This document shows positions 1,333 to 60,726 of a DNA stretch of 64,000 nucleotides, piece after piece. Numbering within the stretch: position 1 is the stretch's first letter; each line of letters opens with the position of its first letter. This DNA comes from Spirochaetota bacterium. GTDB lineage: Bacteria > Spirochaetota > UBA4802 > UBA5550. The notes beneath the pieces are model-generated. The model worked only from the letters and a program-made list of their open reading frames with translations. It was not told the origin of the DNA and did not search any database. The stretch is taken from NCBI GenBank assembly GCA_017999915.1, contig JAGNKX010000001.1, positions 186,001-250,000 of the forward strand. The letters are read 5' to 3'. The translations under genes were made by a program, and so were the position numbers.

Positions 1333-2963
1333 CTGACGCCACGGGGCCGTTTACCCGGCGGGATTTTATCAAGAAGCCTGGCCTTGAACTCCGTACTTTT
1401 ATCCTGCCATCGGGGCTCGCGGCTCCTGTCGTATTCGAAATAATAGAGATTGGCCTTTGAATAGAGATCCAGGGCGGCCTCCGGCGTTATAGCAATAATG
1501 TCAGGAACCGGTATTTCATTAATGTCATTCCTTGCATAAACAAATGAAAACATATGACCGCAGCCATAAAGCCATTTTGCTTCAGCCGGATAATAAGCTA
1601 TGGTGGAACCTTTCGGTATCGAGGAGCCCGGCAGGGGCGGGTGCAGCAGCGCTTCGGAATTCAGCTTAAAAGCTTCATCAACGCGGTTCATGTCACGGGA
1701 AAAATTAATGGCCGATAATGTCATCGGCACGATCACGATAATGCACAGAGCGGCCACCGCGACGGTCCTGTTCCTTGCCTTTTCAAGGAGCCGTGAAACA
1801 AACCTGGCATAGAGCATCATGACGGCAACGGCAGGGAGCGCAAAATGCCAGGGTCTGCCGCCGCTGTAGACCGGCAGCATCATGAAGGCGGCAATGAAAA
1901 AAAGCAGCCCGAGTAACTTTCTAATTTCATCACGCTCCTTCCGGATAACGATTATCGCCCCGTAATAGAAAACGGCCGCCAGGACCATCAATCCATAGAT
2001 ATTATTGGCATTTGTGCTGTGCACGCGGAATAAGGGCCAGGTTTTATTTGGGAATTTGAATACATGGAAAAGCCAGAGGAAGCCGGAGACTATATTGTTG
2101 ATGATAATTGCGGGATTGAGACCAATCCGGTATTCCCCCGAGCTGAACGATTCCTGAACCCTGGATAGAAATATAGCAATATAAATGATGGTAATAATTA
2201 TTACCATCAGCGTCAAAACCAGGCGGTTCCTGAACAAGGCATTACCGGTGGCGACGGTCGTTCTATTGAAGAGAAATTCAAGGATCAAAAAACCAGCAAG
2301 AAAAACAGGAAGCCCGATGGCCTGTTCTTTGGATGTGACGGCCAGCAGATAAAGAAACATTGCTATAGCAATCCACGGGAAAGCTTTTTTTCTCTCCAGA
2401 AAATTGCCGCAGAAGATGATGCAAAACCAGAGAAGGAAGAACTGGTACAGGAAATCAGTCATGAAGAGATTGTGTATCAGAATGAAAAAAACCGGATGGA
2501 TGAAGGAGAGGAGCGATGTAAGAAGCGGCGTGATTTCATCTTTAAACAGCTGTCGCGTAAAATAGTAGATAAAAACACTATTAATGGCAAGCATTATAAC
2601 GCCAAGGACCTGGAATCCCGCGATATTGTGCCAATCGATAAAGGGCGTCACAAGCTGGTAAAAGGTGACAAAGGCCGTGGGACGGTAAAAATATTGACCG
2701 AATGATACAAGGAAAGGATTATACAGGGCGATGATATCTTTTAGCGACAGGTTATAATTCCAAAAATAGAAGAGAGACCATTCCGGGCTATACCGTGGAT
2801 AGGACAGCACCTGGGAATAAACCGCGAGGATTGAAATAATTAATGCGGCACAGTAAAAGATCAAGAAAAACTTTTTGGGCAATCGTTGCGTTCCCGCTGC
2901 CATCGCCGATTTTCCCTTGAAAAGAAAAGACCATTGATCCATGATTTTTCTGATAATACTCAC
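1329..2963 (-). CDS. Multi-pass membrane protein, GT-C glycosyltransferase-like
   Basis: A 544-residue integral membrane protein with about 11-12 hydrophobic segments. The first starts near residue 32; long loops follow the first segment and the last (the C-terminal ~130 residues look periplasmic). The layout resembles GT-C superfamily enzymes (ArnT/PMT/GT39-like) that transfer sugars from polyprenyl-phosphate donors, but I do not see a clear Asp-Asp or Asp-Glu catalytic pair in the first loop; the loop contains SPEWSLFYFWNYN and a YRPTAF element often seen in bacterial GT39-like proteins of unknown specificity. Base composition is clearly more AT-rich than the flanking genes, suggesting separate acquisition together with the overlapping methyltransferase. 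The role in surface polysaccharide or lipid glycosylation is inference. Confidence 0.6.
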   Translation of the reverse strand: MSIIRKIMDQWSFLFKGKSAMAAGTQRLPKKFFLIFYCAALIISILAVYSQVLSYPRYSPEWSLFYFWNYNLSLKDIIALYNPFLVSFGQYFYRPTAFVTFYQLVTPFIDWHNIAGFQVLGVIMLAINSVFIYYFTRQLFKDEITPLLTSLLSFIHPVFFILIHNLFMTDFLYQFFLLWFCIIFCGNFLERKKAFPWIAIAMFLYLLAVTSKEQAIGLPVFLAGFLILEFLFNRTTVATGNALFRNRLVLTLMVIIITIIYIAIFLSRVQESFSSGEYRIGLNPAIIINNIVSGFLWLFHVFKFPNKTWPLFRVHSTNANNIYGLMVLAAVFYYGAIIVIRKERDEIRKLLGLLFFIAAFMMLPVYSGGRPWHFALPAVAVMMLYARFVSRLLEKARNRTVAVAALCIIVIVPMTLSAINFSRDMNRVDEAFKLNSEALLHPPLPGSSIPKGSTIAYYPAEAKWLYGCGHMFSFVYARNDINEIPVPDIIAITPEAALDLYSKANLYYFEYDRSREPRWQDKSTEFKARLLDKIPPGKRPRGVR

Positions 2964-3249
2964 AATTCACCGTCCTTAATCACAAATTCCTTATTCCATA
3001 GAATGTTACAGGAGAGCACTATCTCTTACCGCTTAAAGTATCAGAGTAATAAGCCAGGATTTCCCACTAATTACGATAATCATTTCATACCTGTCAGCGT
3101 CCTTGTCAAATAAAAATCCTGTAAGGCGGCCCTTGCTCCGCCGGCATCGGTGCCGGCAAACTGCTAAACCATTTCAAGAATCCGTACGATAATATCCATA
3201 GCGACATAACCGTATCTGACCGCAACTTCGTAATATGGGGAGCACCGCC

Positions 3250-5910
3250 ATGGCAAAAATCACACTGTCCGTATCCATTCTGATGGTAATGATCCTTCTG
3301 GGCAACGCCCATGGTTTCGTTGAAAAAAGGCACCAGTGGTGGCAGGTCCATCTCAAGAACCTCGCTGAAGAAAAGGCGCGGGTCATGAAAAACAACGCCC
3401 TGGACCGGCAGGTTCTCGGTGTCATAGATGATGAAATGACCAGGGCCCGCGAGATCATTGCGGTCTTTGAAAGCGAAATGAAACATGACGGCTCGCTGGT
3501 CCTTGAGACACGGACCATGACAGAGGCCGATATCGCCTCCGAAGCGGCGAGGACCGTTCCGCCCCTGGTGGCGCTCCACCAGTTCCAGGCCCTGGTCAAT
3601 GAAGCAGGGACCGGCGCCGCCATGGATGAGGCCCGTCAGGCTGTGGAAAAACGCGTACAGGTCATGATACAGAGATCATTCACAAAAGAAAGTCCTGACC
3701 TGCTCCGCCGGATCATGGACACGAACATAGGGAAGGATGAATGGAAGAACCTCTCCATCGAATATTTCATCGGCAGGATGATGGCGTCCCGGCGAAACAG
3801 CATAGACCATGCCATCGCCGACATCACCGGCCGGGTATCCCTCGCCCTTAAAGGCACCTCCAATAGGACCAACGCCAAGGAACTTCATGGCATGACCGTC
3901 AAAGCAGCCCGCGAATACCTCGCGGAGTGCGGCTTCCATGGGTCTCCCCATGACAGCGCAGCCCTGGCGGCTTCCTGGACCTGGAAGAGGATAGAAGCAT
4001 CCCTGACACGGGACTTCAAAACCTGCAACGGCGTCATTTCCCTCATTCATGGCTCCGGCGGAAACCCGGGCGCGGTCTCCCTTGACCGCATCATGTACTT
4101 TTGCAAGAATCCGGCCGAGCTGGAATCGATCCTCTTCAAAGGACAGCATCCCCATCTGGGCGACACCAAGCCATCGGCCGTCCCGGGCCATGGCCGCCAG
4201 GGAACGGCTGTCATGATTGAAATACCCGGGCCCCTCCGCGCCAATGATTTGCTTGATGAAATTGACAGGCTGCGCAGGGGAACCATTGGGACCCTTACCG
4301 GCAGGGAGGATGGGCAATATTTCGAAAGAATCGATGCCGGCTTCACATCTATCATCAGCCGCCACAGCACGGCGGTGAAAAACCGTTTCGCCCGGGAAGA
4401 GGAAAGAATCCGCCTTCTGAAAAGGAAGGACAGCGGCGTGCGAATTGTCAACGAGAAAGAATTCAGTGACGCCCATAACGATTTTAAAAAGGCCCTCTCC
4501 ATGATCGACGGGTACAGGAACAAATCCATGGAATACCTCCGCATCGTCTCCGAGGGCATGAGGATTGACAGCGCCTCCCTCGCGGAGCAGTATCGCAGCC
4601 GCTTTCAGCGGGACCAGGATTATCTTCGGTTTGCGGCGGCGCTGGTGACCGAGTGCTCGCGGCTGTCGTCCTTTGAAGTGCCGGGGATCCACAGGGATTT
4701 CTCCCTCGCCATGTCCAGGGTGCGTTCAGTGTATAATTTCATCGATACGGGCCTGAGACTTGAAAAGGAGGACCGGACGCACCTGACCAAGCGCGATTTC
4801 GGCGCCATCCGCGATGACAAGATCCAGTTCACGGGCGCCATCAATTCACTCAAAGAAAATATCCGGAACACCTATGGGCGGTACGGCATTCAGCGCTCCT
4901 CATCCGCAATGGCAGGTAAAAAAAGCGAATCCTGTCTGAGGGACACGATAGCCCAGGACGAGATCGACGGCCTCTACCGCCATGTGGGACGATGCGTCGA
5001 GCTCTTCGAACAGTTCATCTACCCCGAGAAGGCCCTCTTCCGCTATGCCGAACGGTTCAATGCCTTCATGAAAGAGGCCCGCACCGGATCGCCGTCGAAG
5101 GAGCTGGAGCAATCGTTGAAGAACGGGTCCCTCTTTTCATCCATGGAGGATTTCGACGGCGCCCGTATAGCCCGCGAGACCGCCACGAAAAGCTATCTCC
5201 GGAAGGAAGGAAAGTCGGCCCTGGCGCGGCTTGCCACGCTGCTCCAGCAATATAAAAAGAGCGGTGTTTCCTTCAAGGACGCTCCGGCGGCAGGGTCTTT
5301 GGCGGCCCTGGCGGGACGCCTGAACGCAGCGCCGCAGGTGAAAATCGATTCCTGGGTGATGACCGAAAGCAACTGCGCGGAGATCGACGCCAAGGCGATA
5401 AAAAAGCTCTCTCTCCTGCTGAACCGCGGGGACATAGCCCCGGCCGCGTCTGCCGGCGCCAACGACATGGCCCGGACCGAGTCCCGGAAGATCGTAGCCA
5501 TCAAGGAGCCGGAGCTTTCACTGGCCTTTCCCCGCGGCTGGGAAGAGGATTCCATCGGGGAATCCGAATCGTACCTGGGCATCGTCAAATCGCTCCACAG
5601 CGGCGACGGCGCCTCCTCGGTGAAGCTCGTCAGGCTCGCCCTGGAGCAGGGCGACATGAAGGATACGGCCGAAGCGTGGATACGAAAATCAGGGTGCAGC
5701 CTGGTGGAAAAGAGGTGGGAAAAAACGGGCGATATACGCTATCTCTGGATCCTTGCCAGGGACAAGAACAGGAACATTTTCGAAACCTGCTCGGTTTCAA
5801 AGGACGGCTACGCGGTGCTTATCACCGGAAGGAGCGGCAGGGACCGGTACGTGAAATTCAAGGCGCAGTTCAAAAAGATCATCGATTCGTTGCAGATGGA
5901 GACGCTGTAA
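3250..5910 (+). CDS. Large secreted or periplasmic alpha-helical protein of unknown function
   Basis: I do not recognise this 886-residue protein. I chose the ATG at 3250 because GGGGAG lies about 7 bases upstream; an in-frame ATG at 3235 would overlap that ribosome-binding site. The start gives a clean Sec signal peptide (MAKITLSVSILMVMILLGNAHG). The rest is predominantly charged and helical with no membrane segments. Two Cys-containing stretches occur (around ECGF, TCNG, YFCKN and ECS). The last ~130 residues differ, with beta-type patterns (ELSLAFPRGWEED, YLGIVKSLHSG), resembling the small PsbP/Mog1-like modules that end many exported proteins of unknown function. The gene stands alone, convergent with aat. 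Confidence 0.7.
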   Translation: MAKITLSVSILMVMILLGNAHGFVEKRHQWWQVHLKNLAEEKARVMKNNALDRQVLGVIDDEMTRAREIIAVFESEMKHDGSLVLETRTMTEADIASEAARTVPPLVALHQFQALVNEAGTGAAMDEARQAVEKRVQVMIQRSFTKESPDLLRRIMDTNIGKDEWKNLSIEYFIGRMMASRRNSIDHAIADITGRVSLALKGTSNRTNAKELHGMTVKAAREYLAECGFHGSPHDSAALAASWTWKRIEASLTRDFKTCNGVISLIHGSGGNPGAVSLDRIMYFCKNPAELESILFKGQHPHLGDTKPSAVPGHGRQGTAVMIEIPGPLRANDLLDEIDRLRRGTIGTLTGREDGQYFERIDAGFTSIISRHSTAVKNRFAREEERIRLLKRKDSGVRIVNEKEFSDAHNDFKKALSMIDGYRNKSMEYLRIVSEGMRIDSASLAEQYRSRFQRDQDYLRFAAALVTECSRLSSFEVPGIHRDFSLAMSRVRSVYNFIDTGLRLEKEDRTHLTKRDFGAIRDDKIQFTGAINSLKENIRNTYGRYGIQRSSSAMAGKKSESCLRDTIAQDEIDGLYRHVGRCVELFEQFIYPEKALFRYAERFNAFMKEARTGSPSKELEQSLKNGSLFSSMEDFDGARIARETATKSYLRKEGKSALARLATLLQQYKKSGVSFKDAPAAGSLAALAGRLNAAPQVKIDSWVMTESNCAEIDAKAIKKLSLLLNRGDIAPAASAGANDMARTESRKIVAIKEPELSLAFPRGWEEDSIGESESYLGIVKSLHSGDGASSVKLVRLALEQGDMKDTAEAWIRKSGCSLVEKRWEKTGDIRYLWILARDKNRNIFETCSVSKDGYAVLITGRSGRDRYVKFKAQFKKIIDSLQMETL

Positions 5911-46048: not shown

Positions 46049-47848
46049 TTATTGAAGACGCTTCTCCAGCCCTGCAAGCTCCTCCAGGAGCTCCTTCGGG
46101 AGCCATGAACCGAACTTGGCGTAGTGCTCCTTGATGAGGGCGATCTCTTTTTTCCAGCCCTCGCGATCGACCGTGAGAAGCTCTTTCATATCATCCCCGG
46201 TCACGCCGGAAAGGCCGGAAATGTCTATGGCGTCCGGCGCGGGCATGTACCCGATGGGGGTTTCCACGGCCTTTCCCTCGCCGCTGCAGCGCTCGAAGAC
46301 CCACTTGAGGACCCGGCTGTTCTCGCCGTATCCCGGCCAGAGCCACTTGCCGTCAGAGGTCTTGCGGAACCAGTTAACGTAGAAAATCTTGGGCAGCTTG
46401 TCCGCGGCGGTGCGATTACCAGTCTCGATCCAGTGTTTGAAGTAATCCCCCATGTGGTAGCCGCAGAAGGGAAGCATTGCAAAGGGATCGCGGCGCACGG
46501 TGCCGGCGGCCAGGTCAAGGGCGGCGGCGGTCACCTCGGAGCCGACGATGGATCCCAGGAACACGCCGTGGTTCCAGTTAAATGACTGGTGCACCAGGGG
46601 AATGGTGCTCGGCCTGCGCCCGCCGAAGAGGAAGGCGCTTATGGGCACGCCGTTCGGGTCTTCCCAGGACGGGTCGACGCCGGGGCACTGCCGCGCCGGC
46701 GCGGTGAAGCGCGCGTTGGGATGGGCGGCCGGCTTATCCGATTTTCCTTCCTCCCACTCGTTGCCGGTCCAGTCGATGAGCTTCCCCGGCGCCTTGTATC
46801 CGATCCCCTCCCACCAGACATCGCCGTCGCCGGTGAGGGCCACGTTGGTATAGATGGTGTTGCGGTCGATAGACTTCATGGCGTTGGGGTTTGACTGCAT
46901 CGAGGTCCCCGGCGCCACGCCGAAGAAGCCCGCCTCCGGGTTGATGGCGTAGAGGCGGCCGTCCTTTCCGAACTTCATCCACGCGATATCGTCGCCCACG
47001 CACTCAACCTTCCATCCAGGGATGGTGGGGATTAGCATGGCCAGGTTCGTCTTGCCGCAGGCGGAGGGGAACGCGCCGGCGATGTACTTCTTTTCTCCCT
47101 TCGGGCTGGTAATGCCGAGGATGAGCATGTGCTCCGCCAGCCATCCTTCCTCCCGGGCTATCACAGAAGCGATCCGGAGGGCCAGGCATTTCTTCCCGAG
47201 AAGGGCGTTGCCGCCGTACCCGGACCCGTAGGACCAGATGGTGTGCTCTTCGGGAAAGTGGGATATGTATTTCTTGTCAAGGGGCGCGCAGGGCCACTTG
47301 CCGTTGTCACTTTCGCCGGGCTTCAGGGGCTTGCCCACGGAATGCATGCAGGGGACGAAGTCGCCCGTTTCTCCGAGCACCTCAAGCACCTTTTTCCCAA
47401 CCCTCGTCATGATATGCATGTTCACCACCACGTAGGGCGAATCTGTTATCTCGACGCCGATCTTCGATATGGGGGATCCCACCGGGCCCATGCTGAAGGG
47501 TATGACGTACATGGTGCGGCCCTTCATGCAGCCCTTGTACAGGTCCTTCATTATCAGCTTGAGCTCTTGGGGATCGATCCAGTTGTTGGTGGGGCCCGCC
47601 TGATCCTGCGTACGGGACGCGATATAGGTCCTGTTCTCGACCCGGGCCACGTCGGAAGGATCGGAGCGGAAGAGGTAGCATTGGGGAAGCCTGTCTTTAT
47701 TGAGAGGTATCGCTATTCCCTCATCAACGGCAATCTTGATCATGCGGTCGTATTCCTCCTTGGAACCATCGCACCAGTAAATGCTTTCCGGGGTCGTCAT
47801 GGCAGCCATTTCATCGACCCATGCAATGAGTTTCTGATTTTTCGTCAT
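46049..47848 (-). CDS. pckG: Phosphoenolpyruvate carboxykinase (GTP)
   Basis: A 599-residue GTP-dependent PEPCK that interconverts oxaloacetate + GTP with PEP + GDP + CO2. Family blocks: [40 protein letters not shown], the kinase-1 P-loop [14 protein letters not shown] with the mobile Cys, GDDIAWM, the [12 protein letters not shown] motif and FNWNHGVF. I start at 47848 because AGGAGAAGGG precedes that ATG; an in-frame start at 47923 adds an atypical leader. Next upstream is gdhA on the same strand, 300 bp away. Together they manage PEP/oxaloacetate/2-oxoglutarate flow. Confidence 0.97.
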
Positions 47849-48149
47849 CGCCCTTCTCCTGTAATTATTGCGGTAAACAAACGTTATAGTCAACTGTATC
47901 TGACGGCCATCCTTTAACACCATACACCATAGTCAAGCAAAAACATCGGACCATCTGATACATTCGGGTCAGAAAAACACGCATGAAAATATGCGGGATT
48001 ATTTCTTTGCATTGATGCGGGCACGGCGCCGCCCGTTATCCGGGGGCGCGGATTCCGTGATGACAGATGCGGATATGACATGGGCACACCCGGCGTGCCG
48101 GATGTGCCCATGGTTACATTGCAGCGATTCAAATGACGGCGCGGCGCTT
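47849..48149. other. Gap between gdhA and pckG
   Basis: 301 bp, same-strand genes on both sides. It contains the hairpin at 48079-48112. TTGACT (47893-47888) and AATAAT (47869-47864, minus strand) have 18-bp spacing but would start transcription inside the pckG ribosome-binding site, so I do not call them a promoter. Confidence 0.4.
48079..48112. terminator. Long hairpin downstream of gdhA
   Basis: CATGGGCACA (48079-48088) pairs with TGTGCCCATG (48103-48112), enclosing CCGGC-GT-GCCGG after one mismatch, a 15-bp hairpin 37 bp after the gdhA stop. No T-run follows, so it may end transcription with Rho or stabilise the mRNA. Confidence 0.5.
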
Positions 48150-49820
<1,671 letters not shown>

Positions 49821-52409
49821 TCACCGGTGCTCAAAACATACCAGCTTCTGGACATTGATATCCGCGATGAGCCGTATGGCGAAATCGACATCATAGACGT
49901 GAAGGACCTCGCCAAAGAGAGCGTCCTCCTGGAGAATATCAGCGGTGATATTTTTATATTTGCCCAGGAGCTGCGGGTTGAAATTCATACCCTCTTTGTC
50001 GGGGATTATCGCTATGTAGTAAGTGTCGCTTTCCACGATGTCCTGAAAAAAGTGGGTCCCGTAAGAAATGTCCGGGATCAGGTCGTCCCTCATGACCGCG
50101 ATCTCGACTATGACCGAGGCGTTGTTTATCTCGAAGTATTTCACGGGAACCCCGAGGGCCGGCGTCGTCGTTCCCCACCGTCCCGGGCCGATCAGCATGA
50201 CGGGAAACTCGCTGCGGTTGCCCGCCTTCCTGTTTATTTTCCCTATAAGATGGGCCAGGCTGTACTTGTCAGATTGTGAGAGCTCGCTGTATTTACGGGG
50301 ATCAACAAAGATGACCCACTTGATATCGGAGGTTATGCAGCCGCCGAGAAAATTCCCCTCGGACCTGAAAAAAAGCTTCTCCGCCGGGACATTGTCCGGC
50401 ATGGGGGCATTGTCGGTATGGCAGCGGAAATGCTGCGGCCGGCACTGGAGCAGGTTGATCCGGTAATTGCCGTCGGCGGTGAAGTTCACCGCGTATTCGA
50501 TGTCCACCGGGTTCTCATAGGTCTCCTCGAGGATCTTCATGATCATCTGCATATCCTTCACGAAGGGGGTCTTGAGGATGAAATCATCGAAATTCACCAG
50601 CCATGATTCGGCGTCCGTCGCGCCGCGCTCCCGCATCTTCTCCTCGACTTCACTGTCGCGCATGCCCACGAAGGACTTCACGGTTTCCCTGCCGTCCTTG
50701 AAAAAATCGGCCACATCGATCGTTTCCAGCCTGTTGTCCGTGATGTTGAGCACGTCCAGGTGCCGCTGCGAGAACTTCCGCGCATCCCCCATTCCCGACT
50801 GCGGCTTCTGCAGGGGATTGTCGAGGGCGATGATCCTCGGGTAGTCTCCCTCGACCCGGTTGACGGCCCGGGTGCCGAGGCCGATGACGTTGCGCAGCAT
50901 GCCGGCGGCGGGATCCATGTCCCGGTTCCATATGTAATGATTGTAGGACAGGCCGACCCCGGCCATGTCGGGATAGAAATTGGTGCCGTGGTACGATCCG
51001 GAAACACGCATGACCAGGAGGCCCATCTGCTCGTCGAGCTTCTGCAGCCCCTTGTTCATCCGGTAGGTCAGGGCGTCGTCCCCCATGACGCTGGCGAATA
51101 TCTGCTTCACCGCCTTTTCAAATTCTACGTAGCGCACGTCCGGAGAGGCCTGGTTGACCAGGAACAGGCTCTCGTACTTCCCGGCGAAGGCGTTCCCGTA
51201 GGCGTCCTCCAGGAGGCTTGAGGAGCGCACGATGATGGGCGACTGGCCGAAATACTCGATAATCCTCTGGAAGGTCCCCTTTATTTCGTCCGGGAAGCTT
51301 CCCTCGGGGATCAGCTGGCGAAGCGTCGCGGCGGCGGTGTAATATCCCTCGTCGGTCTTGTGCTCCATGAAGAGCTTCCACCATCCGTTATGGACGATAT
51401 AGGTGTAGAACACATCGGAGCCGATGTAGAAGGAGTCGTGGGCTTCCTGGAGGCGCTCCCACTTCACCCGGTTCTTCTTCAGCAATATCTTCCTGGCGAG
51501 GATCATGCCGACGGCCTTGCCGCCGATAAATCCGGTCCCGATGAGGTGGTCCTTCAATTCCAGAAAATCGTCGAGGGTCAGGTATTCCTGGGCCAGGGAC
51601 AGGATCTTCTCGTCGCGGCCCATGATCATCCGGCAGAGCTGGCGCACCATCGCCTCGCGCTCCTCCCTGTTGTTCTGTCCCATCGCCAGGTCTTCCGCTT
51701 TCAGGAAGGTCCGGTCCCAGTAATCGAGGATGCGCAGGGTGCTTTCAAGGCCCCGCTTCTGGATATGCTTCACCAGGTACGTCGCCTCGATGCTGTCGAT
51801 GATGGGGGTGAAGGCGTTTCCCTTCTTCAGATGGGGGAAGAACATGGTCGGCGTGTACCGGTTCAGCACCTTCAGGGGATGGATGTAGAAATTGGTCTCC
51901 GCGTTGTACACGTCGATGAGGAGCTGCGTGGTTTCCCTGATCCGCGCCACGGTCTTGAAGGAATGGTTATTCCGCAGCAGGGCGAAATAGGCTATGGTAT
52001 CCAGCTTGAAAAGATAGGGGCAGGTGATGCTGAAAAAATTGCCCAGCATCAGGTCCGTCGCCCAGGCCGACTGCAGGTCGGAGAGGCAGTCGAAGACATA
52101 GAACACCTCGTTCCCCTCCTGGCCGATGATGCCGTGGAGGGTCGTGGTAAAGAGCTCGAAGCCGCGCTGCGCGTCAAGCTCGTACGCCGCCGAATACTGG
52201 TGCGGCGCGAGGAGCGGCTCGTGGGTCGCGAAGCGTATGTACACGACCCTCCGGCCCTGCTTCAGCGCCATGTTGGCGAAGGGAAGTACGAACTGCTCGT
52301 AGTCGTAGAGGGTATCGACCTGCCAGACCACGTTATCGCCCAGCCTCAGGCTGTCGCACACCTCGTCAAGGCTGGGTAATCCGGTGCTGATTTTCATCAG
52401 AGTCTTCAT
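49821..52409 (-). CDS. P-loop-less KaiC-like domain fused to PEP-synthase-type ATP-grasp domain
   Basis: An 862-residue protein. Residues ~1-230 are KaiC/RecA-like (ISTGLPSLDEV, GDNVVW, FYVFDCLSD as Walker-B-like strand) but no GxxxxGK[TS] follows the first strand, so ATP binding there is doubtful. Residues ~310-660 are a PEP-synthase/PPDK nucleotide-binding domain: GGKAVGM, PIIVRSSSLLEDAYGNAFAGKYES, VIGLGTRAVNRVEGDYPR and the closing NLLQCRPQ. The phosphohistidine and PEP/TIM-barrel domains are absent; instead a ~190-residue C-terminal domain with GPGRWGTTTPALGVPV and SYGTHFFQDIVES occurs, a combination I associate with uncharacterised 'PEP/pyruvate-binding' proteins. GAGGG is best spaced for the ATG at 52409. 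It follows its KaiC-like paralogue by 37 bp. Confidence 0.82.
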   Translation of the reverse strand: MKTLMKISTGLPSLDEVCDSLRLGDNVVWQVDTLYDYEQFVLPFANMALKQGRRVVYIRFATHEPLLAPHQYSAAYELDAQRGFELFTTTLHGIIGQEGNEVFYVFDCLSDLQSAWATDLMLGNFFSITCPYLFKLDTIAYFALLRNNHSFKTVARIRETTQLLIDVYNAETNFYIHPLKVLNRYTPTMFFPHLKKGNAFTPIIDSIEATYLVKHIQKRGLESTLRILDYWDRTFLKAEDLAMGQNNREEREAMVRQLCRMIMGRDEKILSLAQEYLTLDDFLELKDHLIGTGFIGGKAVGMILARKILLKKNRVKWERLQEAHDSFYIGSDVFYTYIVHNGWWKLFMEHKTDEGYYTAAATLRQLIPEGSFPDEIKGTFQRIIEYFGQSPIIVRSSSLLEDAYGNAFAGKYESLFLVNQASPDVRYVEFEKAVKQIFASVMGDDALTYRMNKGLQKLDEQMGLLVMRVSGSYHGTNFYPDMAGVGLSYNHYIWNRDMDPAAGMLRNVIGLGTRAVNRVEGDYPRIIALDNPLQKPQSGMGDARKFSQRHLDVLNITDNRLETIDVADFFKDGRETVKSFVGMRDSEVEEKMRERGATDAESWLVNFDDFILKTPFVKDMQMIMKILEETYENPVDIEYAVNFTADGNYRINLLQCRPQHFRCHTDNAPMPDNVPAEKLFFRSEGNFLGGCITSDIKWVIFVDPRKYSELSQSDKYSLAHLIGKINRKAGNRSEFPVMLIGPGRWGTTTPALGVPVKYFEINNASVIVEIAVMRDDLIPDISYGTHFFQDIVESDTYYIAIIPDKEGMNFNPQLLGKYKNITADILQEDALFGEVLHVYDVDFAIRLIADINVQKLVCFEHR

Positions 52410-52446
52410 TGCAAACATTCCCTCGTGTCAGATTCGCGATAATGCC

Positions 52447-53718
52447 CTATGCCAGTATATAATAAAACACACATTTCCCGGCGCCGACGCAACGCCAGCG
52501 GGAGACAAAAATATCGGTGAGCAGCAGCGAGTCTCCTTCGGCGACGATGATGCTCTCCTCATTCATAAAAACTTCCAGCGACCCTTCGGTTACAATGATA
52601 AATTCTTTTCCCTTGTGGAGCAGTATGGGGCCTTCGATCGTCCTATTCCGCTCCAGCGTGATGCAATACGACTGCATGCCATATCGATCCGTCTCGATCA
52701 TGGCGGCTATATCCGCCTCCCGGTGAGCCAGCGGAATACGGGCGCTCTTTTTTGTGAACGCGTATCCGCGGGCGGCGCCGCCAGGGGACGCCAGACCGAA
52801 AAAATAATCTATGGGCTTGCTGAATACGGAAGACAGCTGGATCAATGTCTGCAGCGAGGGGGTGATGATGTCGTTTTCAATCTGCGAAACGGCCCCGGGT
52901 GTCATTGAGAGGGACATCGCCAGCTCGGCCTGGGTCATGCGGGCCTCTTTTCGCAGGTTCTTCACCTTTTCGCCGATCTTGAACGACTCCGACGCTTTCT
53001 TGTCGTCGAAGACAATGTTGTTGTCGATTATTCGAAAGAAGCTCGGCTGTGATCCGTAGAGCGGCGTGCGGTCCTGGAGCTTGTGGACCTGCAGCTCGTA
53101 ATATTCCGAATCCGTGGCCTTGACGGAAAACACGATCTGAGTGATGTGCATGATGCCGGCGATGAATTCCCGCGAATGGGCCTCGCGGCGGATGATCCAG
53201 TAGGCAAGAGCATTGAGGTCATAGAGCTTGGGACAGGTAAAGGTAAAAAAATCAAGGACGGCCGATTCGTCCTTCCAGAGCTCATGCATGCCCGTAACGC
53301 CGTCAAAGATATAGAAGGTGCCCTCCTTTTTGTGTTTCAGCTCGATTTCGTTCAGGATGCTGACAAAGGAGGTTATGTTTTTCGGATTCTCTATTTTAAT
53401 GATACGGTCACTGTCGTACTGTTCGCTGTTATAAAAATCGAGAAACACGCTGTCACCGTTGCCCTTCCCATGGGTAAAGGCATCCACCAGGATCGCGTTT
53501 TTCCGCTTAAACAGGTAGTCATACCGCTTGAAGATTGTCTGGGGCGAGAAATTAAAATTGATATAAATGATAGTATTGCTAAAATCCTTGGAGGAATCAA
53601 AAAAGCACCTGATAAAATCCTCTACGGGAACCCCGTCAGCCGCCTCCCAAACGACATTATCGCCATTTTTCAATCCGCCCGTCAATTTATCGAGGTATGT
53701 CAAGCCTGTGCTAATCAT
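52447..53718 (-). CDS. P-loop-less KaiC-like domain fused to XRE HTH and cupin
   Basis: A 423-residue regulator. Residues ~1-235 are homologous to the N-terminus of the next gene: STGLTYLDKLTGGL, GDNVVW, FYIFDGVTG and FFTFTCPKLYDLNALAYW mirror FFSITCPYLFKLDTIAYF there; again no P-loop. Residues ~250-305 form an XRE helix-turn-helix (VKNLRKEARMTQAELAMSLSMTPGAVSQIEN). Residues ~345-423 are a cupin beta-barrel (EGPILLHKGKEFIIVTEGSLEVFMN). XRE-cupin regulators sense a small molecule in the barrel; here a third, protein- or nucleotide-sensing domain is added. AGGA lies 8 bases ahead of the ATG. A palindrome 116 bp upstream may be its operator. Confidence 0.85.
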   Translation of the reverse strand: MISTGLTYLDKLTGGLKNGDNVVWEAADGVPVEDFIRCFFDSSKDFSNTIIYINFNFSPQTIFKRYDYLFKRKNAILVDAFTHGKGNGDSVFLDFYNSEQYDSDRIIKIENPKNITSFVSILNEIELKHKKEGTFYIFDGVTGMHELWKDESAVLDFFTFTCPKLYDLNALAYWIIRREAHSREFIAGIMHITQIVFSVKATDSEYYELQVHKLQDRTPLYGSQPSFFRIIDNNIVFDDKKASESFKIGEKVKNLRKEARMTQAELAMSLSMTPGAVSQIENDIITPSLQTLIQLSSVFSKPIDYFFGLASPGGAARGYAFTKKSARIPLAHREADIAAMIETDRYGMQSYCITLERNRTIEGPILLHKGKEFIIVTEGSLEVFMNEESIIVAEGDSLLLTDIFVSRWRCVGAGKCVFYYILA

Positions 53719-53833
53719 AGTCTACATCCTTGGTTGCGAATCAAAATAACAGCAACCTGTTGTGATCATACTATTTATAATATAATCTGTGTCTATTAAG
53801 AATTACTTAATTTATTATTAGATATATTTAATT

Positions 53834-53847: not shown

Positions 53848-53884
53848 TAAACAGACTCGCTGTGGAACCGCGTCACACGCTCGG

Positions 53885-53936
53885 CCGACGCCTTTTTGCA
53901 CATCCTGTGCGGCGTCGGCACTGCAACATCCTGTTG
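53885..53936. repeat. Tandem hairpins with shared ATCCT loop
   Basis: CCGACGCC (53885-53892) pairs with GGCGTCGG (53911-53918), enclosing GCACA-TCC-TGTGC; next comes CAACA-TCC-TGTTG (53924-53936). The two inner hairpins share the same loop but have different, self-compensating stems. Confidence 0.6.
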
Positions 53937-53945
53937 GGCGCATGG

Positions 53946-53993
53946 AGCCCCTGCGGGGAGAGGGGCTTATGAGGGGCTTCGCCCCTCAACCCC
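53946..53993. repeat. Dispersed double-hairpin repeat, copy 2
   Basis: CCCC-TGC-GGGG (53948-53958) and TGAGGGGC-TTC-GCCCCTCA (53970-53988) followed by ACCCCG. Compared with copy 1 (43228-43269), an A-T stem pair is replaced by G-C on both sides, keeping the fold. Confidence 0.7.
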
Positions 53994-54193
53994 GGTATAA
54001 AGAATTAAATACGCAGAAATTCCAATGATTCATGGAGCGTACCCATAACATTGTCAATTATAGAAATGAATACCCGCGCACAGGGAGAACCGCGGAGCAG
54101 AGAGTGGCGACCGCCATATCGGCGGGCACTGGATTTATTGCACACTGCCCCAAGGGGACGTGTCTTTTATTTCAACATACGGCATGGATCCGG

Positions 54194-54865
54194 TTAAATC
54201 CGATGATCTTCCCGGATGATAACCCTGCTTCCGCCATGAAGGCTCACATTCCAGTTTTTCGGCGCTTTCACCACCTTGAGCCTGTCAAGCTCGCCGATCT
54301 CCTTAAGCCTTCGGTATATCAATTGCCACGCGCAGCTGCGGTCAGGCCTCACTTCGCACCGGTCTTCCCGCGACCCGCCGCAGGGTCCGTTGAGCATATG
54401 CTTGGCGCACCTGGTGACGGGGCATATTCCCCCGTATTCATGGAGGACGCATTTCCCGCAGGCCGCGCATTTCTCTGTCCAGACCGCCCGCTCTTCGAGA
54501 ATGCCTATAAACTCCGTGTCAAGGCCGGCGTAGACCGGCTTGTTGTACCGCTCGGCGACGGCCTGCACGCCGGCGCCGCAGCCGAGGGAGAGTATGATGT
54601 CGTTCCGGCTGATCGCTTCCGCCGCCTTCTCCAGGAAAATATTATCGCACTGGCGCTCGATGGTCAGCTCCTCGATCTCCAGCGGAAGGCTCCTCAGCCG
54701 GGCCGCTATGCGAAGGGCCGACGAGATGATGCTCACCTCGCGCTCGCCGCCGGCCAGGCACACGGTCACGCAGGTGCCGCATCCCAGCACCAGCACTTTT
54801 TTCTTTCCCTGCAGCATGTCGATGAGCTCGGGAATGCTTTTTCTCTGCGCTACTATCATACGCAT
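54194..54865 (-). CDS. metV: MetV-like methylenetetrahydrofolate reductase C-terminal/zinc protein
   Basis: A 223-residue protein of the MTHFR_C family (PF12225). Cys motifs are LGCGTCVTVCLAGG near residue 29, LSLGCGAG, and the C-terminal CAACGKCVLHEYGGICPVTRC with LNGPCGG, the signature of MetV and of the C-terminal domain of archaeal/acetogen MetF partners. In acetogens MetV binds MetF and links it to Hdr-type electron carriers. Here it overlaps the end of mvhD by 10 bp and ends the Hdr operon; no metF occurs in the window. GGAG lies upstream; the second Met (codon 3) has better spacing. Confidence 0.85.
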   Translation of the reverse strand: MRMIVAQRKSIPELIDMLQGKKKVLVLGCGTCVTVCLAGGEREVSIISSALRIAARLRSLPLEIEELTIERQCDNIFLEKAAEAISRNDIILSLGCGAGVQAVAERYNKPVYAGLDTEFIGILEERAVWTEKCAACGKCVLHEYGGICPVTRCAKHMLNGPCGGSREDRCEVRPDRSCAWQLIYRRLKEIGELDRLKVVKAPKNWNVSLHGGSRVIIREDHRI

Positions 54866-55305
54866 ATCTCCTGATTGACTGATTGGTTGGTTTTTTTCAG
54901 CGGGTTGGGCCCGAGCTGCCTCACCGTCTCTATCATTTCATTGATATGATCAACTAAAAGCCGCGCGCCGGCCGCGGATACATTCACCATGCGAATGCGG
55001 CTTTCATCCAGGCCGCTTTCCGAAAGAAAGGACCGAGTATAGCGGACCCTGCCCTTGGCCAGAAGATTACCCTCCGAGAAATGGCATCCCCCCTCCAGGC
55101 ACCCGGCGACGAGAATGCCGTCGGCGCCCCTCTCGAAGGCCTTCATGAAAAACTCGACCTCGAGCCTTCCGGTGCAGGGGGTCCGGATGATACGCACATT
55201 GGTCGGGTACTGCAGCCGCATGGAGCCGGCCAGGTCCGCTGCTGAATAAGAACAGTACTGGCAGCAAAAGGCTATGATCAACGGCTCGAAATATTCATCA
55301 CTCAT
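54856..55305 (-). CDS. mvhD: MvhD-type hydrogenase/Hdr iron-sulfur linker protein
   Basis: A 149-residue FlpD/MvhD-like [2Fe-2S] protein that passes electrons between an electron-donating enzyme and HdrA. Family landmarks: IIAFCCQYCSYSAADLAG, VRIIRTPCTGRLE, FERGADGILVAGCLEGGCHFSEGN, giving the usual five-cysteine set. A C-terminal helix follows. RBS AGAGGAAAT precedes the ATG. It lies between hdrA and metV in the operon, which suggests that it connects the HdrABC complex to MetV or to a MetF encoded elsewhere. Confidence 0.92.
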   Translation of the reverse strand: MSDEYFEPLIIAFCCQYCSYSAADLAGSMRLQYPTNVRIIRTPCTGRLEVEFFMKAFERGADGILVAGCLEGGCHFSEGNLLAKGRVRYTRSFLSESGLDESRIRMVNVSAAGARLLVDHINEMIETVRQLGPNPLKKTNQSVNQEICV

Positions 55306-55377
55306 GTATTTCCTCTTTCATGCATAATTTCCTGTTTTATTTCATCGTCCCTCTGGGTTATGGGAGGCCGGCCATCC

Positions 55378-58300
55378 TCATTTTTTCTTTCCGGCAGCGG
55401 CATAATCCGCGATATAGTTATCCAGCAGTTTTTCCAGCATGGTGTTGAACTGCCGTGACTCGAAATGATTGAGCTGTATGGCCCGTGCCGGGCACTCAGA
55501 GGCGCATATGCCGCAGCCCATGCATTTCGCAGCCATGATCTCCCCCTTGCCGTCGACGTTCATGAAGGGCGCCCCGTAGGGACAGGCGTGGACGCAGGTC
55601 ATGCAGGATATGCACTTGTCCTGGTTCACTTCCGACACCTGGGCCCCGACCTCGAGATGGGTCTTCGACAGGACCGTGGCGGCGCGCGACGCCGCGGCCC
55701 TGGCCTGGGAAATGTTCTCATCGATCATTTTCGGCGAATGGGCGAGTCCGCAGAGGTACACACCTTCCGTGGCGAAATCGACCGGGCGCAGCTTGATGTG
55801 GGCTTCCAGGAAAAAACCGTCATTGTTGAGCTGCAGCTTCAGCATGTCCGACAACCGCCGGTTATCGGGAGAGGCCTTGATCCCCGTGCTCTGGATCACC
55901 TTGTCCGCTTCGATCTCGATCGGTTCGGGAAGATCGGGGCTCGTGAGGGAGACGATGAGCATGTTTTCCTCGTAATACACTTCCGGCTGCTTGGTTTCGC
56001 TGTAGCGGAGAAACACGATGCCGGCCTTGCGCGCCCGCTGATAGTGCTTTTCCCTGAATCCGTAGGTCCTGATGTCCCGGTACAGGATATAGATATTGAC
56101 TTCGGGGTTCTTCTCCTTGAGTATCAGGGCATTCTTGACCGCCATGGAACAGCACACCCGGCTGCAATAGGGCGTTTCCCTGTTGCGCGAGCCGACGCAC
56201 TGGATCATGACGATGTTCTTCACGTTCCGGGCGAAATGCTCTTCGTGGATAAGCTGCTCCAGCTCGAGCTGGGTGAGGATGTTGTCCGATTCGCCGTAGA
56301 GATATTCAAGGGGCCGCGCCGGCTCCGCTCCGGTGGCGACAATGACGGCCCCGCAGGACACTTCTACGCCCTTGCCGTTACCGGCTTTCATCTCCGTCAG
56401 CGTGGCTGTGAAATTGCCGATATGGCCATGGACCGAATCGACCTCGCAGTTCAGGTGGGTCGCGATGTTGCGGTGGCCCTTTACTCTCCGAATGAGGTCA
56501 TTCATGAATTCCGCGGTGTTGTCGCAATCAAGGGTGGAGTGGATGAGTGACATCTGCCCCCCCAGCTTCCCCGACTTTTCGACCAGGGACACGGAGAACC
56601 CCTGCTCCGCCAGGGAAAGCGCCGCGGTCATGCCGGAGAGACCCCCGCCGATGACCAGGCCGTTCTGGTTAATCGCGATCGATTCCCCCGTGAGGGGCTT
56701 CAGGAGCCCCGCCCGGGCGATGGACATCCGCACCAGCTCGATGGCCTTCAGGGTCGCGTGGTCCGGATCGGACGAATGCACCCACGAGCACTGGTCCCGT
56801 ATGTTGGCCAGCTCGAAGAGGTAGGGGTTCAGGCCCGCCTCGCGCAATGTCTCGCGGAAGAGCGGCTCGTGGGTCCGCGGGGTGCAGGAGGCGACCACGA
56901 CCCGGTTGAGACGGTATTCGGCGATGCGCTTCTTGATCTCCGAAAGGCTCGAATCGGAGCAGGTGTACATCGTGTGGGAGGCGACGACCACATTGGGATC
57001 GCCGGCTATGGCGTTCGTCACTTTTTCCACGTCAACGGTCGAGGCTATGTTGATTCCGCAGTGGCACACGAACACGCCGATCCTCGGCTCCTCGTCCGTC
57101 GTATCGTGCTCTACCGGGTATTTCTTCTTCGCGATGAGGGTGTTGCGGGACCCGGCCAGCAGCTCCATCGACAGGGACGCGGCCGCGCTCGCCTGGGTCA
57201 CCGTTTCCGGAATGTCCTTCGGCTCCTGGAAGGCGCCGGCCACGAACACGCCGGGCCGCGACGTCTCCATGGGCGCGTACCGGCTGGTCTTGCAGAAACC
57301 CGACTGGTCCAGCTCGATGCCGAGGCGCGCCATGCCTTCGGAAATATCGGTCTTGGGGTCCATGCCGACGGCCAGGACCACCAGGTCAAAATCGCGCTCC
57401 TCGTGCCGGAACCGCTCATTGAGGAAGCGGAGCCTGATGTCCCCCGTTCCGGGGACCTGGAGGGCCCTAGAGGGAATGCTCTTTATGTACGCGATATTGT
57501 CCCTGGCCCTGGCCCGCTCGTAGTACTGGTCGAAATCCTTCCCGAAGGCACGTATGTCCATGTAGAATATGGACGCCTCCATGCCGTCAATGTGCTCGTC
57601 CGCCACCAGGGCCTGCTTCGTCGTGGCCATGCAGCAGATGGAGGAACAGTATTCGTTGCCGCACCTGGAGTCGCGGGAGCCGACGCACTGGATCCAGGCT
57701 ATGCGCTTCGCCTCCCTGCCGTCGTCCCGCCGCACCACGTGGCCGCCGTAGGGACCGGCCGCGGAAAGCATCCGCTCGAACTGGACGCTGGTGAGCACAT
57801 TGGAATAACGGTTGTAGCCGAATTCGCCCTTCCGCTCAGCGTCAAACTCCCTGAAGCCGGGGGCCAGGATGACGGACCCTATCTCCAGGCCGAAAGACTC
57901 TTCCCTCATATCGTGGACGACGGCCTTCTTGTCGCAGGCGGCGACGCACTCCATGCACTCGGAGCAGACAGCGCAGTTCAGGCATCGCTCCGCTTCGGCC
58001 AGGGCCTCTTCAACGGAAAAGGCGGCTTCAACCTCGTCAAAGCCGGCGATCCTGGCGTCCGCCGGAAGATGGACAGCCGTGGCCCGGGATTTCTTTTCAA
58101 TATGTTTCAGGGATGGAAGCATCTCCTCAGGCACGGGCCGCACCGTTGATTCAAAGCGGTCGGAGAGCATGTCCTTGCCGTCCAGGTAGCGCTCTATCGA
58201 TTCGGCCGCTCGCTTCCCCGCAGCCACCGCCTGGATAACGCTGGCCGGACCGGAGGCGTTGTCGCCGCCGGCGAATATTCCCTTAAGGGACGTTTCCATG

Positions 58301-59868
58301 GTGCGGGGATCGACCTTGAAGCAGCCCCGCTCCGCGTCGGCGCCGATATGCTTGAGGAATTCCCCATCCGTCATCTGGCCGATGGCCACGATGACCTGGG
58401 TTGTGTCTATTATCGTGAGATTCTTATCATTGTATTCGGGGCTGAATCTTCCCTTTTCGTCAAAGACCCTGAGGCACTCTTTAAATTCTATTCCTGTGAC
58501 GGAATCGCCGCCGAGGATGCGGCGGGGCCCCCAGCCGTTGCGTATGACGATCCCTTCAGCCAGAGTCGCCTCTATCTCTTCCCGGTATGCCGGCATTTGA
58601 TCACGCCGCTCCAGGGAAACCAGCTCCACCTGCGTCGCGCCGAGGCGGACAGCCGTCCGCGCCACGTCCACAGCGACATTGCCGCCGCCTATGACCACGA
58701 CCTTCTTTTCAACAGCGGGCCAGCTTCCCGGCTCGCCCGCCTGGCGCAGAAAATCCACGCCGCCCGAGACGCCCTTCTTCTCCTCTCCCTCGATGCCGAG
58801 CTTCCTGCCGCCATGGGCGCCGGCGCTGATGAAAATTGCGTCAAATCCCTTCTTCAGCTCATCCAGGGTCTTGTCCTTACCGATGCTGCAGCCGGCGACG
58901 ATGGTGACGCCCTTTCTCTTGATAAGATCTATTTCATAATCGAGGATGTCCTGGGGAAGACGGTAGCGGGGTATCCCCCACCGGAGCATGCCGCCGGCGT
59001 CGCTCCTGGCCTCGAAAATCGTCACCGCCAGACCCCTGTCGGCCAGGTCGCCGGCGCAGGTGAGTCCCGCGGGGCCTGCGCCGATTATGGCGACCTTCCT
59101 GGCTTTTTCGGAAGGCGTCTTCTGTTCCGGCAGAGGGAGCTCCCCGGACCGAACCAGCATCATCTCCTGGTCCGAGGCGAAGCGCTTGAGCTGCCTGATG
59201 GCCAGGGCCGAATCCACCTGCGAGCGGGTGCACTCGCCCTCGCAGGGGGCCGGACAGACCCGGCCGCATATGGCTGAGAGGGGATTCCGCTCCCTGATGA
59301 GGTTTACGGCCTTCACATACTCTTTCTTCCTGATCAGCTGGATATACCCCTGTACGTTGATGTTCGCGGGGCAGGTGGCCTTGCAGGGAGCGTGGCCCAG
59401 CTTCTGGATCGCGGGCTTGTTGGGGATCGCCTGGGCCGAATATTTCTGCACGACCTTCCGCTTCCCGAGGCCGCGGTTGAACCGGTCCTCCACCTCCACC
59501 GGACAGGCCTTGGTGCAGTCGCCGCAGTCGTTGCATATCTTTTCATCGATATAGCGGGGCGACTTTTTGATACGGGCCGTGAAATTGCCCGGCACGCCCT
59601 CGAGCTTTTCGATCTCGCAGAGGGTGTGTATCTCGATATTATGATTTCTCGCGCATTCGACCAGCTTCGGCGACACGATGCAGGTCGCACAGTCGCCGGT
59701 GGGAAAGGTCTTGTCCAGGTGGGCCATCATGCCGCCGATGGCCGCGGATTTTTCCACCAGGTGCACCTTGAAGCCGGAATTGGCCAGGTCAAGGGCAGCC
59801 TGGACTCCCGCGATTCCGCCGCCCTGGACCAGGACCGCGCCGATTATCTTGTTCGTATCTTTTTCCAT
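55378..59868 (-). CDS. hdrA: HdrA-GltD-HdrA fusion flavoprotein
   Basis: A 1496-residue Fe-S flavoprotein with an unusual order. Residues ~1-125: HdrA start with FAD site VQGGGIAGVQAALDL, Cys-rich TGDCATCIVSPK and ferredoxin motif CNDCGDCTKACPV. Residues ~155-590: an inserted GltD/NfnL-type unit with CKATCPANIN, CGRVCPAPCEGEC, FAD motif GAGPAGLTCAGDL and NAD(P)H motif GGGNVAVDVARTA. Then a [4Fe-4S] segment CLNCAVCSECMECVAAC and the rest of the first HdrA (VGSRDSRCGNEYCSSICC). Residues ~915-1400: a second HdrA with VCHCG, GGGLSGMTAALSL and VGSRNRETPYCSRVCC. The end carries two ferredoxin motifs (CISCMTCVHACPY, CMGCGICASECPA). It probably takes electrons from NAD(P)H and may bifurcate them to ferredoxin and to HdrBC or MvhD. 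It follows hdrB by 6 bp. Confidence 0.9.
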   Translation of the reverse strand: MEKDTNKIIGAVLVQGGGIAGVQAALDLANSGFKVHLVEKSAAIGGMMAHLDKTFPTGDCATCIVSPKLVECARNHNIEIHTLCEIEKLEGVPGNFTARIKKSPRYIDEKICNDCGDCTKACPVEVEDRFNRGLGKRKVVQKYSAQAIPNKPAIQKLGHAPCKATCPANINVQGYIQLIRKKEYVKAVNLIRERNPLSAICGRVCPAPCEGECTRSQVDSALAIRQLKRFASDQEMMLVRSGELPLPEQKTPSEKARKVAIIGAGPAGLTCAGDLADRGLAVTIFEARSDAGGMLRWGIPRYRLPQDILDYEIDLIKRKGVTIVAGCSIGKDKTLDELKKGFDAIFISAGAHGGRKLGIEGEEKKGVSGGVDFLRQAGEPGSWPAVEKKVVVIGGGNVAVDVARTAVRLGATQVELVSLERRDQMPAYREEIEATLAEGIVIRNGWGPRRILGGDSVTGIEFKECLRVFDEKGRFSPEYNDKNLTIIDTTQVIVAIGQMTDGEFLKHIGADAERGCFKVDPRTMETSLKGIFAGGDNASGPASVIQAVAAGKRAAESIERYLDGKDMLSDRFESTVRPVPEEMLPSLKHIEKKSRATAVHLPADARIAGFDEVEAAFSVEEALAEAERCLNCAVCSECMECVAACDKKAVVHDMREESFGLEIGSVILAPGFREFDAERKGEFGYNRYSNVLTSVQFERMLSAAGPYGGHVVRRDDGREAKRIAWIQCVGSRDSRCGNEYCSSICCMATTKQALVADEHIDGMEASIFYMDIRAFGKDFDQYYERARARDNIAYIKSIPSRALQVPGTGDIRLRFLNERFRHEERDFDLVVLAVGMDPKTDISEGMARLGIELDQSGFCKTSRYAPMETSRPGVFVAGAFQEPKDIPETVTQASAAASLSMELLAGSRNTLIAKKKYPVEHDTTDEEPRIGVFVCHCGINIASTVDVEKVTNAIAGDPNVVVASHTMYTCSDSSLSEIKKRIAEYRLNRVVVASCTPRTHEPLFRETLREAGLNPYLFELANIRDQCSWVHSSDPDHATLKAIELVRMSIARAGLLKPLTGESIAINQNGLVIGGGLSGMTAALSLAEQGFSVSLVEKSGKLGGQMSLIHSTLDCDNTAEFMNDLIRRVKGHRNIATHLNCEVDSVHGHIGNFTATLTEMKAGNGKGVEVSCGAVIVATGAEPARPLEYLYGESDNILTQLELEQLIHEEHFARNVKNIVMIQCVGSRNRETPYCSRVCCSMAVKNALILKEKNPEVNIYILYRDIRTYGFREKHYQRARKAGIVFLRYSETKQPEVYYEENMLIVSLTSPDLPEPIEIEADKVIQSTGIKASPDNRRLSDMLKLQLNNDGFFLEAHIKLRPVDFATEGVYLCGLAHSPKMIDENISQARAAASRAATVLSKTHLEVGAQVSEVNQDKCISCMTCVHACPYGAPFMNVDGKGEIMAAKCMGCGICASECPARAIQLNHFESRQFNTMLEKLLDNYIADYAAAGKKK

Positions 59869-59874
59869 GGTTGA

Positions 59875-60726
59875 TTACCTTCTCGCCACCGACGCCGCAA
59901 TCGCCTTCGGTGAATGTATCAGCTTGCTCAGCCCGAGACTGTGATGGGAAATGCCAAGGCACAATCCGAGGAGCTGTGTTATATACAGGACCGGCAGGGG
60001 GCTTTGGCTTTCGCCCTGGCGCATATCCAGGTTGATCTGGCACATGGGGCAGGCCACGGCGATGCAGTCCGCGCCGGCTTCCCGGGCCAAATCAACGATG
60101 CCGCCGGAGAGTATTTCCACCAGGTCGGACCTAGTCAGGGTCAGGGAGGCGCCGCAGCATTCCACCTTGTGGGGCCACTCCAGGCTCTCTCCGCCCATGG
60201 CGGCGACCAGCCTATCCATGGACACCGGGTTCTCCGGATCGTCGAAGCCGGTCACCTCGGCGGGACGGACCAGTAGGCATCCGTAATATGAAGCTACCTT
60301 TATGCCGCCGAGGGAATGGGTTATGGCCCCCTTGAGGGCCTCGATCCCCAGGTCCTCGAGGAGGACCTCGATGAAATGACGCACCGGCACGGAGCCGTCA
60401 TAGTCCCGGCCGATGGCGCTGGCCACCCGCTCCCGCGCTCCGGGATTGTTCCTTATTTCATGATTGGCGATCTTCATCCTGCTGTAACAGGAGGCGCAGC
60501 TGACGACCATGTCCAGACCCCTATCCTTCACCTTGAGAAGGTTCGCGGCGGCAAGTGAGAGAGCCAGGTCGTGGTTTACCTGGTGCGCCGGCGTGGAGCC
60601 GCAGCAGGTCCATCCGCCGGGCTCAACGAGATCGATCCCGAGGGCCTTTGCAACCGCCTTCGTCGAGCTGTACTGGTCACGGGCGGTCGATTCCGCCGAA
60701 CATCCGGGGTAATATGCGTATTTCAT
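59875..60726 (-). CDS. hdrB: Heterodisulfide reductase-like subunit B
   Basis: A 283-residue CCG-domain protein. Both cysteine sets that hold the noncubane [4Fe-4S] clusters are complete: YYPGCSAEST, GGWTCCGST, SCASCYSR and YYGCLLVRP, VECCGASL, CPMCQINLD. In methanogens HdrB reduces CoM-S-S-CoB; in bacteria without these cofactors, HdrB homologues act on other disulfides or pass electrons. The start overlaps the hdrC stop by ATGA, so HdrC and HdrB are made together. Confidence 0.93.
   Translation of the reverse strand: MKYAYYPGCSAESTARDQYSSTKAVAKALGIDLVEPGGWTCCGSTPAHQVNHDLALSLAAANLLKVKDRGLDMVVSCASCYSRMKIANHEIRNNPGARERVASAIGRDYDGSVPVRHFIEVLLEDLGIEALKGAITHSLGGIKVASYYGCLLVRPAEVTGFDDPENPVSMDRLVAAMGGESLEWPHKVECCGASLTLTRSDLVEILSGGIVDLAREAGADCIAVACPMCQINLDMRQGESQSPLPVLYITQLLGLCLGISHHSLGLSKLIHSPKAIAASVARR

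Follow-up and report, generated by a model that had tools for sequence, protein, structure and literature searches.

We analyzed a 64,000-nucleotide stretch of a Spirochaetota genome (contig JAGNKX010000001.1, positions 186,001 to 250,000), referred to here as the window. Two adjacent genes in it, A and B, encode proteins that begin with the same type of domain, a KaiC-like domain without a P-loop, which we call the pseudo-KaiC module. In B it is followed by an XRE helix-turn-helix (HTH) domain and a probable cupin domain, and in A by an ATP-grasp domain of the PPDK_N family and a conserved C-terminal domain. The genes are 28-37 bp apart and make up a single operon, B first, upstream of gdhA, a glutamate dehydrogenase (GDH) gene (Table 1). 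The likelier start of A is the second ATG at 52409, which gives 862 residues and fits the orthologues and a GAGGGA Shine-Dalgarno sequence better. An earlier note on this DNA had placed the two genes side by side, with gdhA and pckG as neighbors, and all four genes are present as it described. Since proteins with the module are encoded beside glutamate-making enzymes in many unrelated bacteria, they look like an undescribed control of nitrogen assimilation.

Table 1. Features of the A/B locus, in window coordinates.
Feature	Position	Strand	Description	Basis
Gene B	52447..53718	-	Pseudo-KaiC, XRE HTH, cupin; 423 aa	Open reading frame, Pfam, orthologues
Gene A	49821..52418	-	Pseudo-KaiC, PPDK_N ATP-grasp, conserved C-terminal domain; 865 aa	Open reading frame, Pfam, orthologues
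B residues 1-240	52999..53718	-	KaiC/RecA-fold domain without P-loop, with B-type insertion DAFTHGKGNGDxVFLDFY	AlphaFold2 and Foldseek (2dr3/KaiC)
B residues 252-306	52801..52965	-	XRE/HTH_3 DNA-binding domain	Pfam PF01381, E 2.9e-12
B residues 363-412	52483..52632	-	Cupin	Pfam PF07883 (Cupin_2), E 1.1e-5, 25.5 bits vs 27.2 gathering cut-off
A N-terminal domain	51804..52409	-	KaiC/RecA-fold domain without P-loop, homologous to that of B	BLASTP, hhalign, Foldseek
A residues 298-675	50394..51527	-	PPDK_N ATP-grasp	Pfam PF01326, E 3.5e-45; Foldseek to RPH and HpeI
A C-terminal domain	49824..50375	-	Conserved domain (GPGRWG ... E772 ... SxGTHFFQ), no Pfam family	Pfam, orthologue conservation
gdhA	48150..49607	-	NADP-specific glutamate dehydrogenase, directly downstream of A	NCBIfam NF006929, 745 bits vs 536 cut-off
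pckG	46049..47923	-	GTP-dependent phosphoenolpyruvate carboxykinase	NCBIfam NF003253, 970 bits
Palindrome ATTAAG-N5-CTTAAT	53795..53811	.	Upstream of B; tentative operator/promoter element	Conserved in nearest relative

The N-terminal thirds of A and B have no match in Pfam. They are homologous to each other, with 24% identity over 218 columns in a single BLASTP comparison (E 2e-19) and a profile-profile alignment by hhalign that spans the length of the domain (probability 99.6, E 1.2e-24). The similarity also surfaces unprompted in a whole-genome search (E 2e-10). Structure prediction indicated a KaiC/RecA fold. The AlphaFold2 model of the B domain (pLDDT 92, pTM 0.88) is matched best in Foldseek by the RecA-superfamily ATPase PH0284 (PDB 2dr3; E 1e-13, TM ~0.76), followed by KaiC CI (E ~1e-11). 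In the model of full-length A (pLDDT 86), the N-terminal third matches KaiC (E 2e-9). Sequence searches point the same way. PH0284 is the sole match to a profile of both domains in the PDB (E 0.77), hhalign aligns the module with true KaiC domains from spirochaetes (probability 93, E 4e-7), and the Pfam KaiC family PF06745 is matched in two relatives at E 1e-4, under its curated cut-off.

The module shares with KaiC and RAD55-like ATPases the fold, a STGxxxLDxxxGGLxxGD start and the Walker-B strand. Unlike them, it lacks the P-loop, has the Glu after strand 2 replaced, and occurs as a single domain fused to unrelated outputs. None of 84 N-domains has a Walker A motif at the P-loop position; the lone regular-expression match sits elsewhere, in a helix. 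Despite this loss many residues are invariant, and a Walker-B-like FYxFD motif and an FF...CP motif are strongly conserved. The earlier note had read the two N-terminal domains as paralogous and KaiC/RecA-like, with Walker A lost and a Walker-B-like strand and an FF-(S/T)-(F/I)-TCP-x-L motif kept, and the alignments and models bear this out.

A third architecture is found in Kiritimatiellae and Planctomycetota, in which a B-type module precedes GAF, sigma-54 AAA+ and Fis-type HTH domains identified by Pfam (L100 462-2891 and L106 7944-10274). These proteins belong with the NtrC-family sigma-54 activators that contain GAF domains, and differ from them in having the pseudo-KaiC module as an additional N-terminal input domain. 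Its presence on sigma-54 activators suggests that the module is a portable part of transcription factors. Both the Kiritimatiellae and the Planctomycetota genomes with this form also encode A. In a tree, the modules of A are separate from those of B and the sigma-54 proteins, which group together with support 1.0. The A and B modules are distinct subfamilies, and the insertion in B has no counterpart in A.

Clustering of neighboring genes, followed by Pfam and BLAST mapping, revealed recurrent linkage to glutamate synthesis. A is within 3 kb of a GDH or glutamate synthase (GOGAT) gene at 52 of 99 loci (GDH 38, GOGAT 25), in several different gene arrangements, and within 400 bp of a GDH at 28 of the 99. 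By a rough estimate, such proximity would arise by chance at about 1% of loci, with a handful of targets in a 3-4 Mb genome. The linked loci come from Spirochaetota, Omnitrophota, Elusimicrobiota, Gammaproteobacteria, Desulfuromonas, Desulfatibacillaceae, Margulisbacteria, Chitinispirillaceae, Lachnospiraceae and other Bacillota; several Omnitrophota and Elusimicrobiota have the gene order glnA-gltB-gltD-A-carA-carB, and A-gdhA pairs are present in the genomes of L155 and L157. Among the conserved neighbor clusters of the long form of A, no recurrent neighbor stands out besides nitrogen-assimilation genes. A 1065-residue paralogue of A combines PPDK_N and the same C-terminal domain with a C-terminal nucleotidyltransferase domain and has no pseudo-KaiC module. 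It follows a second GDH type at 9/9 loci, including one in the genome of the window (L225, contig C28 (G000:C28), ~994-4188, directly after the second glutamate dehydrogenase). A 575-residue PPDK_N form in Bacillota, used as an internal control, is near GDH or GOGAT at none of 17 loci, and was dropped as a member of the system for want of linkage to nitrogen genes.

Of 47 B loci, 33 have glutamate synthase next to B, which in most of these immediately precedes the gene for the archaeal-type FMN subunit. These clusters often hold NrpR (in many Nitrospirota), GATase and Fe-S subunits. GAF-ANTAR genes, of the RNA antiterminator type, are present near several glutamate-synthesis clusters (L096, L113, L118, L143, L146 and L199). 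The earlier note had suspected control of phosphoenolpyruvate (PEP) and glutamate metabolism. The glutamate part is now far better supported than it was there, because the GDH/GOGAT linkage recurs across phyla. The PEP part is weak, as a neighboring pckG was seen only in the genus of the window.

Of the XRE-cupin make-up that the earlier note assigned to it, the C-terminal half of B has the XRE HTH and a probable cupin, whose match is slightly under its cut-off. The order of HTH_3 and probable cupin is that of XRE-cupin regulators such as PuuR. B differs from these in its extra 240-residue pseudo-KaiC domain, and in being encoded with glutamate synthase and not in a catabolic operon. An operator-like palindrome is found at B genes of Nitrospirota. 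De novo enumeration identified GGTAA-N4-TTACC upstream of B in 8 regions (shuffle maximum 3). Upstream repeats of TCGGCA-N6-TGCCGA look dispersed and were set aside as operators. Allowing one mismatch, GGYAAnCGnTTRCC occurs 29 times within 260 bp upstream of 47 B genes, versus 18 times in ~650 kb elsewhere. The palindrome follows a promoter resembling TTGACA/TACTAAAAT and precedes the B start codon; Nitrospirota loci with it at the B start include L098-L112 and L173-L187. In eight genomes scanned, the strict pattern is present at B in every one and hardly occurs away from it, and a 1.8-Mb single-contig genome contains one exact copy, before B. Of the palindromes away from B, one separates glnA from the GATase gene of glutamate synthase, and another precedes a GATase-glnA pair (two genomes). 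The copy in G539, close to a gene for an ABC transporter, could be a chance match, and a further one is in G510:C54.

This distribution suggests that B may bind the palindrome. Its geometry, GG-N10-CC, resembles that of the archaeal NrpR operator, and NrpR is a rival candidate for the site. The palindrome would then be the operator of NrpR, a repressor of nitrogen assimilation, and B, which presumably also serves nitrogen control, a co-regulated passenger in the clusters that the two share. NrpR is encoded in the same cluster at many loci, and in archaea it is a 2-oxoglutarate-responsive repressor of nif and glnA (PMC4902934, PMC9765008). The domains of B are unrelated to the NRD1/2 and winged helix of NrpR. 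The recognition helices of B are alike in Nitrospirota proteins with and without the motif, so they do not discriminate between B and NrpR as the binder. However, several motif-bearing loci have no NrpR nearby, and the presence of the site at B in all eight genomes, with one exact copy in 1.8 Mb, is more in keeping with autoregulation than with a global regulator. We regard ownership by NrpR as a real possibility that falls somewhat short of even.

Candidate operators in the Spirochaetota were unconvincing. ATTAAG-N5-CTTAAT is common to just the window and one relative, and is weak as an element because about one copy is expected in the window by chance at up to two mismatches. Stretches within the two flanking intergenic regions (53855-54000 and 49760-49830), e.g. 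GCCGACGCC...GGCGTCGGC and TCATTGCGAGGAGTCCCTCGACAGC, are candidate dispersed repeats. Further upstream of B, on the same strand, 54194-60726 encodes HdrB/HdrA-like proteins, FlpD (methyl-viologen hydrogenase delta) and a methylene-tetrahydrofolate reductase C-terminal protein (PF12225), which suggests electron-bifurcating one-carbon metabolism.

In the A protein, the middle part of the model matches rifampin phosphotransferase (RPH) and HpeI in Foldseek (E 1e-12 to 7e-11). Across 41/41 orthologues, residues K301, R398, E641 and Q658 of the ATP-grasp domain do not vary, and the same holds for R747, E772 and H789 in the C-terminal domain. R398, E641 and Q658 lie in segments that align with PEP synthase, and from established knowledge of PPDK and PEP synthase we take all four ATP-grasp residues to form the ATP site. 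A thus shares the PPDK_N ATP-grasp and its invariant K, R, E and Q with PEP synthase/PPDK, rifampin phosphotransferase and the split dikinases HpeHI, CreHI and PpsAB. Unlike these, A has neither the swivel phosphohistidine domain nor the PEP/pyruvate-binding barrel. PF00391 is not matched, and none of the 41 orthologues contains the [TS]xxGGxxxH signature of the swivel; PF02896 is not matched either, and the NCBIfam PEPS models score far under cut-off. A further differs from these dikinases in carrying the pseudo-KaiC module and a C-terminal domain without Pfam family, and in being encoded beside GDH/GOGAT. The earlier description of A as a PEP-synthase-type ATP-grasp without the phosphohistidine part is therefore accurate, and A being a PEP synthase itself is ruled out by the lack of both domains. 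A cryptic swivel in the C-terminus was also rejected, since the motif is absent and the top 50 full-length Foldseek matches include none separate for this region.

Another possibility is that A contributes the ATP-grasp half to a split dikinase or ligase for small molecules, in the manner of HpeI or PpsB, and acts on a metabolite near glutamate. The histidine/substrate partner would be encoded elsewhere, or its part taken by the C-terminal domain with H789. The matches to RPH and HpeI, the conserved ATP site and the invariant R747/E772/H789 set are all compatible with this. There is also a precedent in the split dikinase HpeHI, in which the ATP-grasp protein HpeI has its swivel partner in a separate protein, HpeH (PMC12167813). 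However, A lacks the swivel signature, has a sensory-type N-domain, and has nitrogen-assimilation genes as its recurrent neighbors; no swivel partner gene recurs among its neighbor clusters. We consider a split dikinase unlikely, though not negligible.

The two genes are often found apart. In 46 Spirochaetota genomes of the class of the window, B orthologues are present in 15 and A in ~23, and many genomes have one only. Of the 11 with both, five have them adjacent in the order B-A and six do not. Adjacency is kept in G036, G037, G028 and G033, and on two deltaproteobacterial contigs, with the genes divergent on one. Outside this class, B is found in Nitrospirota, Deltaproteobacteria and Desulfobacterota; 148 sampled Nitrospirota genomes gave 23 matches, every one B-type. 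A occurs in about ten phyla and in one Methanobrevibacter, and B is absent in most phyla with A. A search that detects A in five other genomes found none in the 18 B-containing genomes from Nitrospirota and Desulfobacterota. Many of the surveyed genomes are incomplete metagenome-assembled genomes, so single absences mean little; the pattern is uniform though.

This distribution bears on the proposal in the earlier note that A and B hetero-oligomerize through their KaiC modules, with B reading the state of A. KaiC-fold domains are usually hexameric, and the homologous modules, the close spacing within one operon and the adjacency retained in relatives all favor such an assembly. Against it, B occurs without detectable A in all 18 of those genomes and A without B in most phyla, the genes are unlinked in six of the 11 home-class genomes, and the modules are distinct subfamilies with an insertion unique to B. 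An obligate pair is ruled out by these counts. A heteromer is not supported as a general principle and is improbable overall; a local interaction within Spirochaetota is possible. Least probable of all is that the linkage reflects mere housekeeping co-expression, with the module left as a structural remnant that senses nothing: about half of the A loci lack the linkage, but it recurs in several arrangements and with two GDH families, contrasts between the paralogue (9/9) and the short form (0/17), and involves a module that is joined to three output types and keeps many invariant residues.

We favor the view that A and B represent two outputs joined to a common sensory or scaffold module, a domain of the KaiC family that has lost its ATPase P-loop. 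The module may sense a nitrogen/carbon or adenylate signal. Through its XRE-cupin DNA-binding half, B would locally control transcription of the glutamate synthase genes, and of those for glutamine synthetase, and probably regulates its own gene too. A, with its intact dikinase-type ATP site and conserved C-terminal domain, would most likely target GDH or GOGAT at the protein level, either as a regulator that depends on ATP or as a partner in phosphotransfer. That the module serves ammonia assimilation, with a transcriptional output in B and a protein-level output in A, we judge slightly better than even. The ATP-dependent regulatory or phosphotransfer role of A is a more tentative assignment, preferred over a metabolite dikinase because A has no swivel domain and no recurrent partner gene. 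More tentative still is the full scheme of a dead KaiC sensor with DNA-binding outputs (B and the sigma-54 form) and protein-level outputs, in which swivel-less A would control GDH, possibly by a new phosphotransfer via the C-terminal domain (H789).

Several observations weigh against this explanation. About half of the A loci, in Actinobacteria, several Clostridia and others, have no GDH or GOGAT within 3 kb. The locus counts carry no phylogenetic correction for kinship, and gene linkage cannot separate a GDH regulator from an enzyme of the same pathway. NrpR, encoded in the same Nitrospirota clusters, could own the palindrome. GGYAAnCGnTTRCC was not found upstream of Spirochaetota B genes, so that direct control of gdhA by B in the window is only presumed.

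Beyond the PPDK_N, HTH and cupin domains, neither Pfam nor NCBIfam has a family that names A or B, and no description of either type of protein was found in the open-access literature, in agreement with the impression of the earlier note. The parts are known; their combination and the tie to glutamate synthesis appear undescribed. Nitrogen enters nearly all biomolecules by way of glutamate synthesis. A represents a family, spread over about ten phyla of bacteria and present in one archaeal genome, that has no function assigned in Pfam, NCBIfam or the literature searched and whose genes are often beside GDH or glutamate synthase. B would represent a family that regulates archaeal-type glutamate synthase in Nitrospirota and has a candidate operator. 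If our explanation is correct, KaiC-type domains became metabolic sensors after loss of the ATPase, and GDH in many bacteria would have an unrecognized ATP-dependent partner.

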